Assembly (NCBI RefSeq): GCF_027483985.1
Contig: NZ_JAIXTJ010000050.1
Location: forward strand, 62,001-126,000
DNA length: 64,000 nucleotides
Reading direction: 5' to 3'
Source: Flavobacterium sp.
Lineage (GTDB): Bacteria > Bacteroidota > Bacteroidia > Flavobacteriales > Flavobacteriaceae
The notes under the pieces are model-generated. The model was not told the origin of the DNA. It did not search any database and was given only the letters and a program-made list of their open reading frames with translations. Below, piece by piece: positions 3,896-60,882 of this stretch. Every line of letters starts with the position of its first letter. Within the stretch, counting starts at the first letter, position 1. The position numbers and the translations under genes are program-made.

Positions 3896-5131
3896 GTGAA
3901 TCCAACCAATAAACTTAAAATATTTAACGATCCTATTTACGGATTTATTACCATACCAAATACCTTAATTTACGATTTAATTCAACATCCGTACTTTCAA
4001 AGGTTACGACGCATTTCTCAAATGGGTATGTCTTATTTGGTTTATCCAGGAGCACATCACACCCGATTTCATCACGCTTTAGGTTGTATGCACGTGATGC
4101 AAAAAGCGATTCAAACACTTCAATTCAAAGGTGTTTCTATTTCAAAAGAAGAAGAAAATGCTTTGTTAATCGCCATTTTATTACATGATATTGGTCACGG
4201 TCCGTTTTCTCACGCAATGGAACATAGTATCGTAGAAGATGTGCACCACGAAGAGATTTCATTGCTGTTTATGAATGAGTTAAATGAAGAATTTGACGGA
4301 AAATTAGCGCTTGCCATTCAAATATTTAAAGGAGAATACCATAGAAAATTTATGTACCAATTGATTTCAAGTCAACTAGATATGGATCGAATGGATTACC
4401 TTAGAAGAGATAGTTTTTATAGCGGTGTAGCCGAAGGAAACATCAACAGCGAACGTTTGATTCAAATGATGGACGTGCAAGATGATTTTCTAGTAATCGA
4501 AGAAAAAGGAATTTACTCCGTAGAAAAATTTTTAGTTGCACGACGTTTGATGTATTGGCAAGCATATCTTCACAAAACCAGTGTCGTAGCAGAAATCATT
4601 TTAATGAAGATTCTAAAAAGAGCCAAAGAATTAACTCAAAAAGGAATTCACCTAGAATGCAGCAAACCCTTGTTGTTTTTTATGGAGCATAAGATTTCAT
4701 TAGAACTATTTGACAAACAAACCATAAAAACCTTTGCTTTACTTGACGATCACGACGTAATGGGTGCTATCAAAGCGTGGCAATTTAATGATGATTTTGT
4801 ATTGAGTTCGCTTTGCAAAATGATCATCAATAGAGATTTATTAAAGATTAAAATGTCGGACGAGAAACCAGAAAAAGAAGGTTTAATAGATTTAAAGAAG
4901 AAATTCATAGCATTGCATCCCATTTCTGATAAAGAAGCAGATTATTTTATTTTCAAAGGAAAATTAAAAAATCAAGCCTACAGTAAACTGAGCGAACCGA
5001 TTAGAATACTCAAAAAAGACCGAACTATTGAAGATGTTGTAGAAGCATCCGATCAATTGCATTTGAAAGCTTTGTCCAAACCAGTGACTAAATATTTTAT
5101 ATGTTTTCCAAAAGTACTATTAGATACCTAG
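3896..5131 (+). CDS. HD-domain phosphohydrolase (dGTPase/SAMHD1-like)
   Basis: About 411 residues with the metal-dependent HD fold: FHHALGCMHV, the core LLHDIGHGPFSH, and the later aspartate in LDMDRMDYLRRDS. This arrangement matches dNTP triphosphohydrolase-like proteins such as the YdhJ/SAMHD1 group, which hydrolyse nucleotides. I chose GTG 3896 (protein starting MNPTNKLKIFND) rather than 3848, because a perfect -7 box lies between the two and the upstream codons encode an unlikely hydrophobic lead. It precedes the lipid A genes, an order I recall from other flavobacteria. The exact substrate is unknown. Confidence 0.88.
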   Translation: MNPTNKLKIFNDPIYGFITIPNTLIYDLIQHPYFQRLRRISQMGMSYLVYPGAHHTRFHHALGCMHVMQKAIQTLQFKGVSISKEEENALLIAILLHDIGHGPFSHAMEHSIVEDVHHEEISLLFMNELNEEFDGKLALAIQIFKGEYHRKFMYQLISSQLDMDRMDYLRRDSFYSGVAEGNINSERLIQMMDVQDDFLVIEEKGIYSVEKFLVARRLMYWQAYLHKTSVVAEIILMKILKRAKELTQKGIHLECSKPLLFFMEHKISLELFDKQTIKTFALLDDHDVMGAIKAWQFNDDFVLSSLCKMIINRDLLKIKMSDEKPEKEGLIDLKKKFIALHPISDKEADYFIFKGKLKNQAYSKLSEPIRILKKDRTIEDVVEASDQLHLKALSKPVTKYFICFPKVLLDT

Positions 5132-17278: not shown

Positions 17279-18025
17279 ATGAAATTACTTGAAGGAAAAG
17301 TAGCTATTATTACCGGTGCAAGTCGTGGAATTGGTAGCGGAATTGCAAAAGTATTTGCTCAACACGGAGCTAATGTGGCTTTTACCTACAGTTCATCGGC
17401 AGAATCTGCTTTAGCTTTAGAAAATGAATTAGGCGCTTTAGGTATTAAAGCAAAAGGATATAAGTCAAATGCTGCCGACTTTAGCGAAGCTCAAAAATTA
17501 GTTGATGATGTAATGGCTGACTTCGGAAATGTTGACGTTTTAATCAACAATGCCGGAATCACGAAGGATAATTTATTAATGCGAATGAGTGAAGAAGATT
17601 TTGATAAAGTAATTGAAATCAACTTGAAATCAGTTTTCAATATGACCAAAGCGGTGCAAAAAATTATGTTGAAAAACCGCAAAGGTTCCATCGTTAATAT
17701 GAGTAGTGTAGTAGGAGTGAAAGGTAATGCCGGACAAGCGAACTATGCGGCTTCAAAAGCAGGAATGATTGGTTTTACAAAGTCAATCGCACTAGAATTA
17801 GGTTCAAGAAATATTCGTTGCAACGCAATTGCGCCAGGATTTATTGAAACCGAAATGACTGCCAAATTAAACGAAGATGTAGTGCAAGGTTGGAGAGATT
17901 CTATTCCGTTAAAACGTGGTGGAACACCAGAAGACGTAGCTAATGCTTGTCTCTTCTTTGCATCAGATATGAGTGCTTATGTTTCAGGACAAGTGCTTAA
18001 TGTTTGTGGTGGAATGCTAACTTAA
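17279..18025 (+). CDS. fabG: 3-oxoacyl-ACP reductase
   Basis: NADPH-dependent reductase of fatty acid elongation. The 248 residues fit FabG once the start is moved from 17198 to ATG 17279 (MKLLEGKVAIITGASRG). The cofactor motif TGASRGIG, the structural NNAG, and the catalytic Ser-Tyr-Lys in MSSVVG and NYAASKAG are all present. The 27 extra codons in the ORF track contain a -7 promoter box and are not conserved family sequence. Confidence 0.93.
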   Translation: MKLLEGKVAIITGASRGIGSGIAKVFAQHGANVAFTYSSSAESALALENELGALGIKAKGYKSNAADFSEAQKLVDDVMADFGNVDVLINNAGITKDNLLMRMSEEDFDKVIEINLKSVFNMTKAVQKIMLKNRKGSIVNMSSVVGVKGNAGQANYAASKAGMIGFTKSIALELGSRNIRCNAIAPGFIETEMTAKLNEDVVQGWRDSIPLKRGGTPEDVANACLFFASDMSAYVSGQVLNVCGGMLT

Positions 18026-18038
18026 GATTTTATTTAAG

Positions 18039-18071
18039 GTGTAAAAGTTTGGGTGTTTAAAAGTTTAAAAG
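18039..18071 (+). repeat. Left arm of 33-bp inverted repeat flanking the four-helix-bundle gene
   Basis: This arm is complementary at 30 of 33 positions to 18488-18520. The inner 17 bases GTTTAAAAGTTTAAAAG are a perfect match to the right arm's CTTTTAAACTTTTAAAC. The arms frame the gene at 18095-18463. Confidence 0.85.
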
Positions 18072-18094
18072 AGTTTGAAATAAAATATATCCAA

Positions 18095-18463
18095 ATGAGA
18101 ATATTTAGTTTTGAAAAGTTGATTGCTTGGCAAAAAGGACGAGAATTAGCTATTTTGATTTATAAAACAACAAAATTATTCCCTAAAGATGAAACTTTTG
18201 GTTTGACAAGTCAAATGAGACGATGTTCCATATCTATTGCTTCTAATTTAGCCGAAGGTTCTGGTAGAAGTTCAATGAAAGACAAAGCTAGATTTTCTGA
18301 AATTGCTTATAGTTCATCTTTAGAGTTATTGAATCAAATCATATTAAGTTTTGATTTCGAATATGTTGATGAAATCCAATATATTCAAATAAGGGAAAAA
18401 ATTACAGAAGTAAATATGCTTATTGATGGTTTACATAAATCTCAAATTGCTAATATAAAATAG
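18095..18463 (+). CDS. Four-helix-bundle protein (S23 / 23S rRNA IVP family)
   Basis: A 122-residue cytoplasmic protein with the family pattern LIAWQKGRELAILIY, FPKDETFGLTSQMRR and ISIASNLAEGSGR, predicted to form a four-helix bundle. Founding members are encoded inside intervening sequences of 23S rRNA genes in Leptospira and Coxiella; stand-alone copies are scattered in Bacteroidota. The function is unknown and RNA or DNA binding has been suggested. I chose ATG 18095 because the longer GTG start at 18053 lies in the flanking inverted repeat. The gene sits alone between fabG and a VWA-like gene, framed by 33-bp inverted repeats. Confidence 0.9.
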   Translation: MRIFSFEKLIAWQKGRELAILIYKTTKLFPKDETFGLTSQMRRCSISIASNLAEGSGRSSMKDKARFSEIAYSSSLELLNQIILSFDFEYVDEIQYIQIREKITEVNMLIDGLHKSQIANIK

Positions 18464-18487
18464 TTTAAAACTACTAGTAGACAATAC

Positions 18488-18520
18488 CTTTTAAACTTTT
18501 AAACACATAAACTTTTAAAC
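18488..18520 (+). repeat. Right arm of 33-bp inverted repeat flanking the four-helix-bundle gene
   Basis: Complement of the left arm at 18039-18071 with 3 mismatches. It consists of CTTTTAAAC-type units, and a related stretch is found at 60848-60882 without any nearby gene of this family, so the arms could also be a local copy of a dispersed simple repeat. Confidence 0.85.
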
Positions 18521-18526
18521 TATCAA

Positions 18527-20554
18527 ATGAACAGATCCACTTTATTATTAATAATCTTGTCAGTTTTAGTAGCTGGTGGTTTGTCTTATTTTCAATATTT
18601 TTATAAAGCTAAGAGTACTTCAAAAATAACGAAGCTCTTAGCTTTTTTACGTTTTATAACGGTTTTTGGACTTTTACTGTTGTTGATAAATCCAATTATT
18701 AGTCGAAGTACTTTTGAAACTATTAAAACGCCTCTACCAATAGTTGTTGATAATTCTAGTTCGATTACCGATCTGAAAGCCAATGTTGTAGCTAAGGAAG
18801 TTTATGAAAAATTAGTTTCAAACGCTAAATTAAAAGATAAATTTGATATTCAATCTTACGGTTTTGATGCTGATTTTCAACCAACAGAGAATTTTGATTT
18901 TAAAGGAAAACAAACCAATATTGATGAAGTTGCAAAAAACTTAAAGAGTATCAATAAAAACTTGAATTATCCAACGGTTTTAATTTCTGACGGAAATCAA
19001 ACTTCGGGTTCGGATTATGTTTTTAGTTTTGATGCAAATAATAAAGTTTATCCGTTAGCTGTTGGTGACACAACGACTTATTTAGATTTGAAAATCAATC
19101 AAATTAATGTAAATAAGTATGCTTTTCACAAAAATAAATTTCCAGTAGAGATTTTTCTTCAATATGCTGGAACCAAATCGGTCAATGCTAATTTTGCTAT
19201 TTCGCAAGGCAATAATGTTTTGAGCAAACAAAGTATTTCGTTTTCTCCTTCTAAAAAATCGGTGGTTTTGAATGTATTATTACCAGCTGATAAAACAGGT
19301 TTACAAATCTTTAATGCAACGTTAACCTCGTCAGAAGCTGAAAAAAACACTTATAATAATGCCAAGAAATTTGCAGTAGAGATTATCGATCAAAAGACTG
19401 AAGTTGCCATAATTTCAGCTATTAATCATCCTGATGTTGGTGCATTAAAACGCGGAATAGAAACTAATGCACAACGTAAAGTTACGATACTTAAACCCAA
19501 TCAAACCAATGATTTAAGTAAGTATAATGTTTTGGTTATTTATCAACCCAATACTACATTCAAACAAGTATTTGACTCCAATAAAAATCTTAAAATTAAT
19601 ACCTGGATTATTACAGGCTTGAATACAGATTTTAGTTTTTTAAACCAACAACAAGATATTATAGATTTTAAAATGTCGTCTCAAAAAGAAGACTATTTAG
19701 CCAATTTCGATTCCAATTTTAATCTTTTTGCTATTGACAATTTAGGTTTTGAAAGTTTTCCGCCATTAGAAAATCCATTCGGAACGATTACTTCTAAAAA
19801 CAACAATACAACATTGCTATCGTCAAGAATAAGAAATGTTGAAACGAACCAACCTATGTTAACATTTTCAGATAATCAAGGAAAACGAAATGCCTTTTTA
19901 TGTGGAGAAAACATCTGGAAATGGCGTGCGCATAGTTTTGTAGACAAAAAAACATTTGAAGAGTTTGATGTTTTTCTTGATAAAACAATTCAGTTTTTGG
20001 CTTCAAATGATTCTAAAAAATCACTAATTGTTAATCACGAACGTTTTTATAACTCTGGCGATGCTCTCGAAATTACAGCACAGTATTTCAATAAAAATTA
20101 TGAATTTGACGATAAAGCACGTTTGACGATTAGTGTTACAAACAATAAAACGAAGCAAGTTAAACGTTATGATTTATTAAAAACCAATAATAGTTTTAAG
20201 GTAAATCTTGATGGTTTGCCAGCCGGACAATATTCGTTTAAAGTTAAAGAGTTAAACTCAAATGCCAGTTACTCTAGCAACTTCGAAGTTTTAGATTTTG
20301 ATATTGAAAAGCAATTTGTAAATCCTGATATGGTTAAATTAAAACAACTAGCTTCTCAAACTAAAGGTGCCGTCTTTGTTCCAAATCAAATAGATGCTTT
20401 AATTAAAACACTTTTAGACAACGAAGATTATAAGGCTATTCAAAAAGATATTGTAAAAAAAACACCTTTTATTGATTGGGTTTGGTTACTAGTTTTAATT
20501 GCTCTGTCTTTAGCATCAGAATGGTTTATTAGAAAATATAACGGATTACTGTAA
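18527..20554 (+). CDS. VWA-like membrane protein
   Basis: A 675-residue membrane protein with two N-terminal membrane helices (LLLIILSVLVAGGLSYFQYF and a second near residues 35-58), a large extracytoplasmic region and one C-terminal helix (WVWLLVLIALSLASEWFI). The segment PIVVDNSSSI carries a DxSxS metal site typical of von Willebrand A domains, followed by LISDGNQTSG. The layout resembles Bat-type aerotolerance and related proteins with VWA and glutamine-amidotransferase-like domains. Role unknown. The 3' end is followed by an orphan promoter and terminator. Confidence 0.8.
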   Translation: MNRSTLLLIILSVLVAGGLSYFQYFYKAKSTSKITKLLAFLRFITVFGLLLLLINPIISRSTFETIKTPLPIVVDNSSSITDLKANVVAKEVYEKLVSNAKLKDKFDIQSYGFDADFQPTENFDFKGKQTNIDEVAKNLKSINKNLNYPTVLISDGNQTSGSDYVFSFDANNKVYPLAVGDTTTYLDLKINQINVNKYAFHKNKFPVEIFLQYAGTKSVNANFAISQGNNVLSKQSISFSPSKKSVVLNVLLPADKTGLQIFNATLTSSEAEKNTYNNAKKFAVEIIDQKTEVAIISAINHPDVGALKRGIETNAQRKVTILKPNQTNDLSKYNVLVIYQPNTTFKQVFDSNKNLKINTWIITGLNTDFSFLNQQQDIIDFKMSSQKEDYLANFDSNFNLFAIDNLGFESFPPLENPFGTITSKNNNTTLLSSRIRNVETNQPMLTFSDNQGKRNAFLCGENIWKWRAHSFVDKKTFEEFDVFLDKTIQFLASNDSKKSLIVNHERFYNSGDALEITAQYFNKNYEFDDKARLTISVTNNKTKQVKRYDLLKTNNSFKVNLDGLPAGQYSFKVKELNSNASYSSNFEVLDFDIEKQFVNPDMVKLKQLASQTKGAVFVPNQIDALIKTLLDNEDYKAIQKDIVKKTPFIDWVWLLVLIALSLASEWFIRKYNGLL

Positions 20555-60789: not shown

Positions 60790-60847
60790 AAAGGCACCAA
60801 GTCACAAAGTTTTTATATGTAAATGAATATCTTACGAAAATACACAA

Positions 60848-60882
60848 ACTTTTAAACTTTTTAAACTTTTAATCTCATAAAC
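60848..60882. repeat. CTTTTAAAC-type repeat without a gene
   Basis: Contains AACTTTTAAACTTTTTAAAC followed by ATAAACTT, strongly resembling the right arm of the inverted repeat at 18488-18520. No four-helix-bundle gene is nearby. Confidence 0.7.

Follow-up and report, generated by a model that had tools for sequence, protein, structure and literature searches.

A four-helix-bundle gene in the loop of a long intergenic palindrome of Flavobacterium, a candidate IVS-like gene cassette

The window analyzed here, a stretch of 64,000 nucleotides (G000:C25:62001-126000) from a host genome of 3.36 Mb, contains a small gene that is enclosed by two complementary arms and located between fabG and a gene encoding a protein of 675 amino acids. 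The features of this locus, together with a separate array of the same repeat unit, are as follows:

17279..18025, plus strand: fabG, the upstream host gene (TIGR01830, E 2.2e-100)
18039..18071, plus strand: 5' arm, AAAAGTTT units of period 8 forming an inverted array that begins 13 nt past the fabG stop codon
18095..18463, plus strand: cargo gene in the loop, encoding a four-helix-bundle (4HB) protein of 122 aa from the S23/23S_rRNA_IVP family (PF05635, TIGR02436)
18488..18520, plus strand: 3' arm, made of period-8 CTTTTAAA units and ending 6 nt ahead of the downstream ATG
18527..20554, plus strand: 675-aa gene, the downstream host gene, with orthologues in 116/150 relatives
60846..60874, plus strand: lone array of the arm repeat unit, unpaired and with no 4HB gene attached

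The two arms comprise 33 nt each, are complementary at 30/33 positions (91%) and lie 416 nt apart, giving a unit of 482 bp. Their inverted local alignment reaches a score of 25.5, compared to 7.5 +/- 1.3 for shuffled sequences and 9.0 for the direct orientation, and RNA folding of positions 18024-18530 predicts a structure of -112.6 kcal/mol (z = -5.2 against shuffles), with the arms paired together in the minimum free energy fold. The enclosed reading frame is intact and matches PF05635 (E 1.3e-33) as well as TIGR02436 (E 2e-30). Alignment, fold and profile searches agree in this respect with the original prediction, which had described an S23/IVP-like gene bracketed by complementary arms. 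The protein family is best known from the intervening sequences (IVSs) of 23S rRNA, and to our knowledge no function has been established for S23 proteins. Solved relatives of the window protein in the PDB are 2gsc (E 3.4e-17) and 2rld; relatives of this protein form pentamers. Profile searches against Pfam and NCBIfam identified the cargo gene as PF05635 and returned no transposase match for it. An Rfam search of the window produced no match, and the 4HB site, reaching from fabG to the 675-aa gene, lies outside 23S rRNA. Although the 675-aa protein is conserved across the genus, it has no match in Pfam or NCBIfam, so that the term 'VWA-like', previously applied to its gene, serves as a provisional label.

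The repeat units of the arms also occur elsewhere in the genome, as had been rightly cautioned for the CTTTTAAAC units. The 17-mer CTTTTAAACTTTTAAAC is found 47 times (with no more than 1 mismatch), compared to 2 occurrences of a reversed control, mostly in single arrays immediately upstream of start codons, and the CTTTTAAA unit of the 3' arm also sits immediately 5' of many other start codons. Given these 47 near-matches, the idea that the units are exclusive to the 4HB gene was rejected; the frequency of single arrays without a partner arm rather indicates that arrays have an existence independent of the cassette. A terminal repeat of one fixed sequence was rejected as well, because the arms vary from site to site. 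In general, 4HB arms are built from repeated units of about 7-8 nt, in which some positions vary around a constant core; arm sequences differ both between the sites of one genome and between species at one site. Their periodicity is reflected in a lag-7 self-match of 0.46 for 4HB flanks, versus 0.34 for co-directional and 0.33 for convergent gaps, and of 0.42 versus 0.26 for control pieces outside the Bacteroidota. The host genome contains 11 PF05635 genes, most of which are flanked, as judged by eye, by inverted arrays of differing short repeats.

The association of 4HB genes with inverted arms is widespread. Within the genus, such arms (z above 4) are present at 87% of 60 stand-alone 4HB genes, with 18% in direct orientation, whereas the values for 558 other genes in the same stretches are 5% and 5%. 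This sample comprised 61 regions, namely the window and 60 stretches, each 12-17 kb in length, that surround 4HB genes. The control genes were drawn from these regions as well, using simple longest-ORF gene calls. When orthologous sites are collapsed, arms are found at 21/25 4HB sites versus 18/237 co-directional control genes (p=1e-16). The same holds for the wider Bacteroidia, with arms at 86% of 22 4HB loci. A scan of named genomes, which covers the core of the family because it used a conserved peptide pattern, and in which many records are metagenome bins with possibly wrong taxon labels, revealed arms at 70% of 4HB loci in the Bacteroidota (n=43; controls 12%) and 71% in other phyla (n=21; controls 16%), including Planctomycetes, Verrucomicrobia, SAR324, candidate phyla and one Clostridia genome. 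Depending on the sample, 13-30% of 4HB genes are without detectable arms. The original prediction of an IVS-like plan outside rRNA holds far beyond the window locus, and a lack of inverted repeats in most homologues, named there as evidence against it, contrasts with the large majority of armed genes observed. The other counter-indication, that the repeat units might be equally frequent around unrelated genes, was borne out in part: the units do occur there, but their paired inverted arrangement is specific, being seen at only 5-8% of other genes. As a separate observation, one 4HB gene of a KSB1 genome has two Acido-Lenti-1 RNAs (L391:3480-3525 and 4053-4098) nearby.

In view of these controls, it is scarcely conceivable that the arms are ordinary noise from simple repeats, or intrinsic terminators that happen to flank a small gene. 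The A+T-rich, low-complexity nature of the intergenic sequence and the presence of hairpins in 47-71% of convergent gaps would be in line with such an origin. However, the pairing between the arms spans the gene and is not seen in direct orientation, the hairpins of convergent gaps lack the 7-nt period, and the armed 4HB pattern is also present in G+C-richer genomes. It is also very improbable that the unit is a decayed 23S rRNA IVS now displaced to a position between genes. While this scenario would account for a protein family and plan that match those of rRNA IVSs, it is at odds with the 11 copies in the host genome and the presence of copies in 59/61 genus genomes, and no rRNA was found at the 20 non-Bacteroidota 4HB loci scanned. 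Moreover, the 4HB orthologues at one particular site (A13) show a dN/dS of about 0.15 (for pairs with dS below 1.5), a value that is rough because dS is high but that indicates purifying selection. With an intact reading frame in the window and a conserved one at this second site, the proposal that the unit could be a remnant finds no support.

The 4HB gene is co-directional with both neighbors in 58/63 cases, compared to an expectation of 53%, and the arms are skewed in composition, with G 0.20/C 0.10 in the 5' arm and C 0.19/G 0.08 in the 3' arm. Ordinary gaps are far less skewed at the matching ends (0.14/0.14 at the 5' and 0.10/0.14 at the 3' end). At one orthologous site compared across 13 species, the units shift in both arms together, for instance from CTAAG to CARAG cores, and each arm pairs better with its own partner (17.2) than with that of another species (12.5; permutation p=0.0005, uncorrected for species relatedness). 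This paired change may equally result from selection or from copying between the arms. Mismatches in the stems comprise 66 G.U versus 62 A.C pairs, as opposed to 27 versus 50 when arms are swapped, which slightly favors RNA over DNA pairing, albeit not decisively.

The search for empty sites between fabG and the 675-aa gene in relatives, recommended at the outset, was successful both there and at other sites. Among about 70 genus members, only the host genome and G032 have a 4HB gene in the fabG gap. In other species, this gap is either short and clean (for instance, 19 bp in G040) or taken up by palindromes that are made of other repeats and lack a gene; a few species have other inserts there. 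Depending on the threshold, 21-44% of the testable fabG gaps were scored as palindromic (21% under the strict setting), and the two halves of empty gaps pair better with each other than with swapped halves (11.1 v 7.5; 0/20000 permutations as good). At the A13 site, the 4HB gene is present in 19/29 cases, and palindromes, of which 6 are strong and 3 weak, occur in 9/10 of the remaining ones. At the hemB site, 5 representatives have a 4HB gene, 9 are palindromic and 9 have neither, and most of the RND sites lacking the gene show a palindrome by eye. In some species, the hemB gap (L298, L302, L305) also harbors dispersed TCCGTAGGAGCGACATATTTATAG-like repeats, which in L298 and L302 adjoin a reading frame resembling a REP-associated transposase. 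In several genomes, long palindromes of the GTCATTTCGACGAAGGAGAAATC kind occupy other gaps (L112, L114, L126, L130, L139) and constitute a distinct dispersed element with a MITE-like look.

The gene-less palindromes of 7-nt character that many species have at these sites (A13, RND, fabG), and the fact that their halves change together without any gene between them, speak for the main competing explanation. It holds that the palindromes are fast-evolving intercistronic hairpins of the host that serve mRNA processing, stability or translation, similar to ERIC, NEMIS and YPAL, with the 4HB genes being tolerated loop inserts that are neither excised nor self-moving. A precedent exists in the intercistronic stem-loops of the ERIC/NEMIS type, for which RNase III processing has been proposed (PMC2229807). 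However, palindromes occur in only 2-23% of ordinary co-directional gaps, whereas about 80% of 4HB genes lie inside one, and we regard this explanation as rather unlikely.

A second type of cargo bears on the same question. The small set of control genes that possess inverted arms includes a GxxExxY gene (TIGR04256/PF13366, PD-(D/E)XK-like). Of 23 members of this family in the genus, 78% have inverted arms (17% direct) and 91% are co-directional, and the arms show a weak period of 9-10 rather than 7. The two cargo types meet at the same places, whose genes were named by sequence resemblance: the thiG-thiH gap holds a 4HB gene in one Flavobacteriaceae genome and a GxxExxY gene in three genus genomes, and the gap between a MiaB-like gene and a sigma-54-type regulator contains GxxExxY in G059 and 4HB in one Hymenobacter genome. 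In the host genome, the gap ahead of this regulator gene (L029) contains a cargo-free array that includes a partial palindrome. Unrelated to 4HB, GxxExxY is packaged alike and found at shared sites. That a second cargo is packaged in this way with a different repeat period suggests that the arms belong to the cargo, contrary to the notion of host hairpins. GxxExxY genes with this packaging and period are located at L141:12357-12728 and L424-L452 (G000:C25:57590-57925 in the host genome), and many copies are decayed, with internal stops. Near a GxxExxY gene, between two minus-strand genes, G000:C25:54827-55017 (L019, L021) holds several hundred bases in which AAGTTTAAAG-type units are mixed with CAACTGAC-type repeats. 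A Y1_Tnp (IS200-like) gene of the host genome (L101:3582-4130) was also noted to have strong inverted flanks (z 19).

The 4HB clade of the window is not confined to one site. It occupies the fabG gap in the host genome and G032; in G028 and G026, it lies in the RND adaptor-pump gap. Identities to the window protein are 80% (G032), 79% (G028) and 64% (G026), compared to 60% for the downstream protein in G032. The RND gap of the host genome itself is an empty palindrome built from the same family of repeats. The presence of one clade at two sites in different species implies that the gene moves or is repeatedly gained and lost, and transposition fits this change of site just as well as loss plus gain. 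At the sequence level, no hallmarks of transposition (target duplication, fixed ends) were found; a comparison of occupied and empty fabG gaps by eye revealed no clear target duplication, with flanks too diverged to define the exact target site. Site exchange within one clade, dispersed gene-less palindromes of the same period and arms that vary by cargo (period 7-8 for 4HB, 9-10 for GxxExxY) would also be compatible with a DNA-level partnership of the REP/RAYT type, in which the palindromic repeats would be recognized at the DNA level by the 4HB protein, or by a partner enzyme, with the empty palindromes as its non-autonomous derivatives. We consider this improbable. We know of no catalytic site in the 4HB family, both the G/C asymmetry of the arms and the fixed sense of the gene speak for transcription, and the arm sequences, unlike REPs, vary among the sites of one genome.

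Our preferred interpretation, to which we assign about an even chance, views the 482-bp unit as a stem-loop gene cassette that resembles an IVS and is situated between genes of polycistronic mRNAs. In this model, two genes that are probably co-transcribed are separated by a long palindrome occupying their whole gap, with the 4HB gene in sense in its loop, and pairing of the arms in the mRNA would produce a stem of some 33 bp. The most likely fate of this stem, judging from the Coxiella IVS, would be cleavage by RNase III or a different nuclease that sets the cassette RNA apart, which may spare the flanking cistrons harm from the insertion, as in the case of 23S rRNA IVSs. The protein may recognize the palindrome, and the cassettes would move, or come and go repeatedly, among a limited set of intergenic sites; in other species, the same sites carry the palindrome without the gene. 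The recurrence of hairpin packaging across many phyla points to an overlooked, probably mobile kind of gene cassette. More tentatively, and with somewhat less confidence than an even balance would warrant, it is tempting to speculate about a new bacteria-wide class, in which unrelated small proteins (4HB S23, GxxExxY) are carried in palindrome loops, with a cargo-specific repeat period, intergenic slots shared across species and gene-less palindromes that are left behind or used. If the stand-alone copies, with several per genome in most Bacteroidia, are indeed the main form, S23 function and IVS mobility would become open to ordinary genetics, and a good part of the fast-changing short-period intergenic repeats in these genomes would be accounted for.

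Literature searches on GxxExxY, on intergenic palindromes of Flavobacterium and on inverted repeats around stand-alone S23 genes, covering few subscription journals, revealed no description of this arrangement. It shares features with several known systems. The Avd/bAvd proteins of diversity-generating retroelements have a related four-helix-bundle fold (PMC10053308). However, the window protein scores below the cut-offs of both Avd models (bAvd, 22.2 bits versus 40; NF033474, 25.1 versus 80), and its gene is adjoined by fabG and the 675-aa gene, with no reverse transcriptase or template/variable repeats noted. The heptamer direct repeats TAACTGA, located upstream of start codons and also known from some Bacteroidetes (MacGregor 2015, PMC4679880), are likewise 7-nt tandem units in forward orientation in gaps next to start codons, but they are direct repeats of one sequence with almost no inverted sets, and a 4HB gene is not mentioned (PMC4679880). 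ERIC, NEMIS and YPAL resemble the 4HB palindromes in their position in transcribed intergenic gaps and their proposed role in RNase III processing or mRNA stability. Unlike these conserved sequence families, the 4HB palindromes swap sequence, keep pairing and can hold a gene; lacking a conserved sequence with fixed terminal repeats, the 4HB cassettes are not a MITE family. REP/RAYT systems (REPINs) also feature a small gene between inverted palindromic repeats and dispersed gene-less copies. However, RAYT is a Y1 transposase with family-fixed REPs, whereas 4HB arms vary by site; as no transposase is encoded, the 4HB cassette is not a REP/RAYT element.

The closest parallel is provided by 23S rRNA IVSs. 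That of Coxiella comprises 428 nt, with a 28-bp stem that is cut by RNase III and an S23 ORF in the loop, and the mobility of rRNA intervening sequences is still a hypothesis only (PMC4990558). The window unit has in common with the IVSs of Coxiella and Leptospira the protein family in the loop, the complementary ends, the stem of about 28-33 bp and the length of 428-482 nt. It differs from them in lying between protein-coding genes, in having arms that are short-period arrays varying by site and in being a predicted rather than a known substrate of RNase III. Since it is not located inside 23S rRNA, it falls outside the class of rRNA IVSs, although the IVS analogy drawn in the original prediction was largely right. 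If a class of hairpin cassettes as outlined above exists, the rRNA IVS would be a special case that landed in an rRNA helix.
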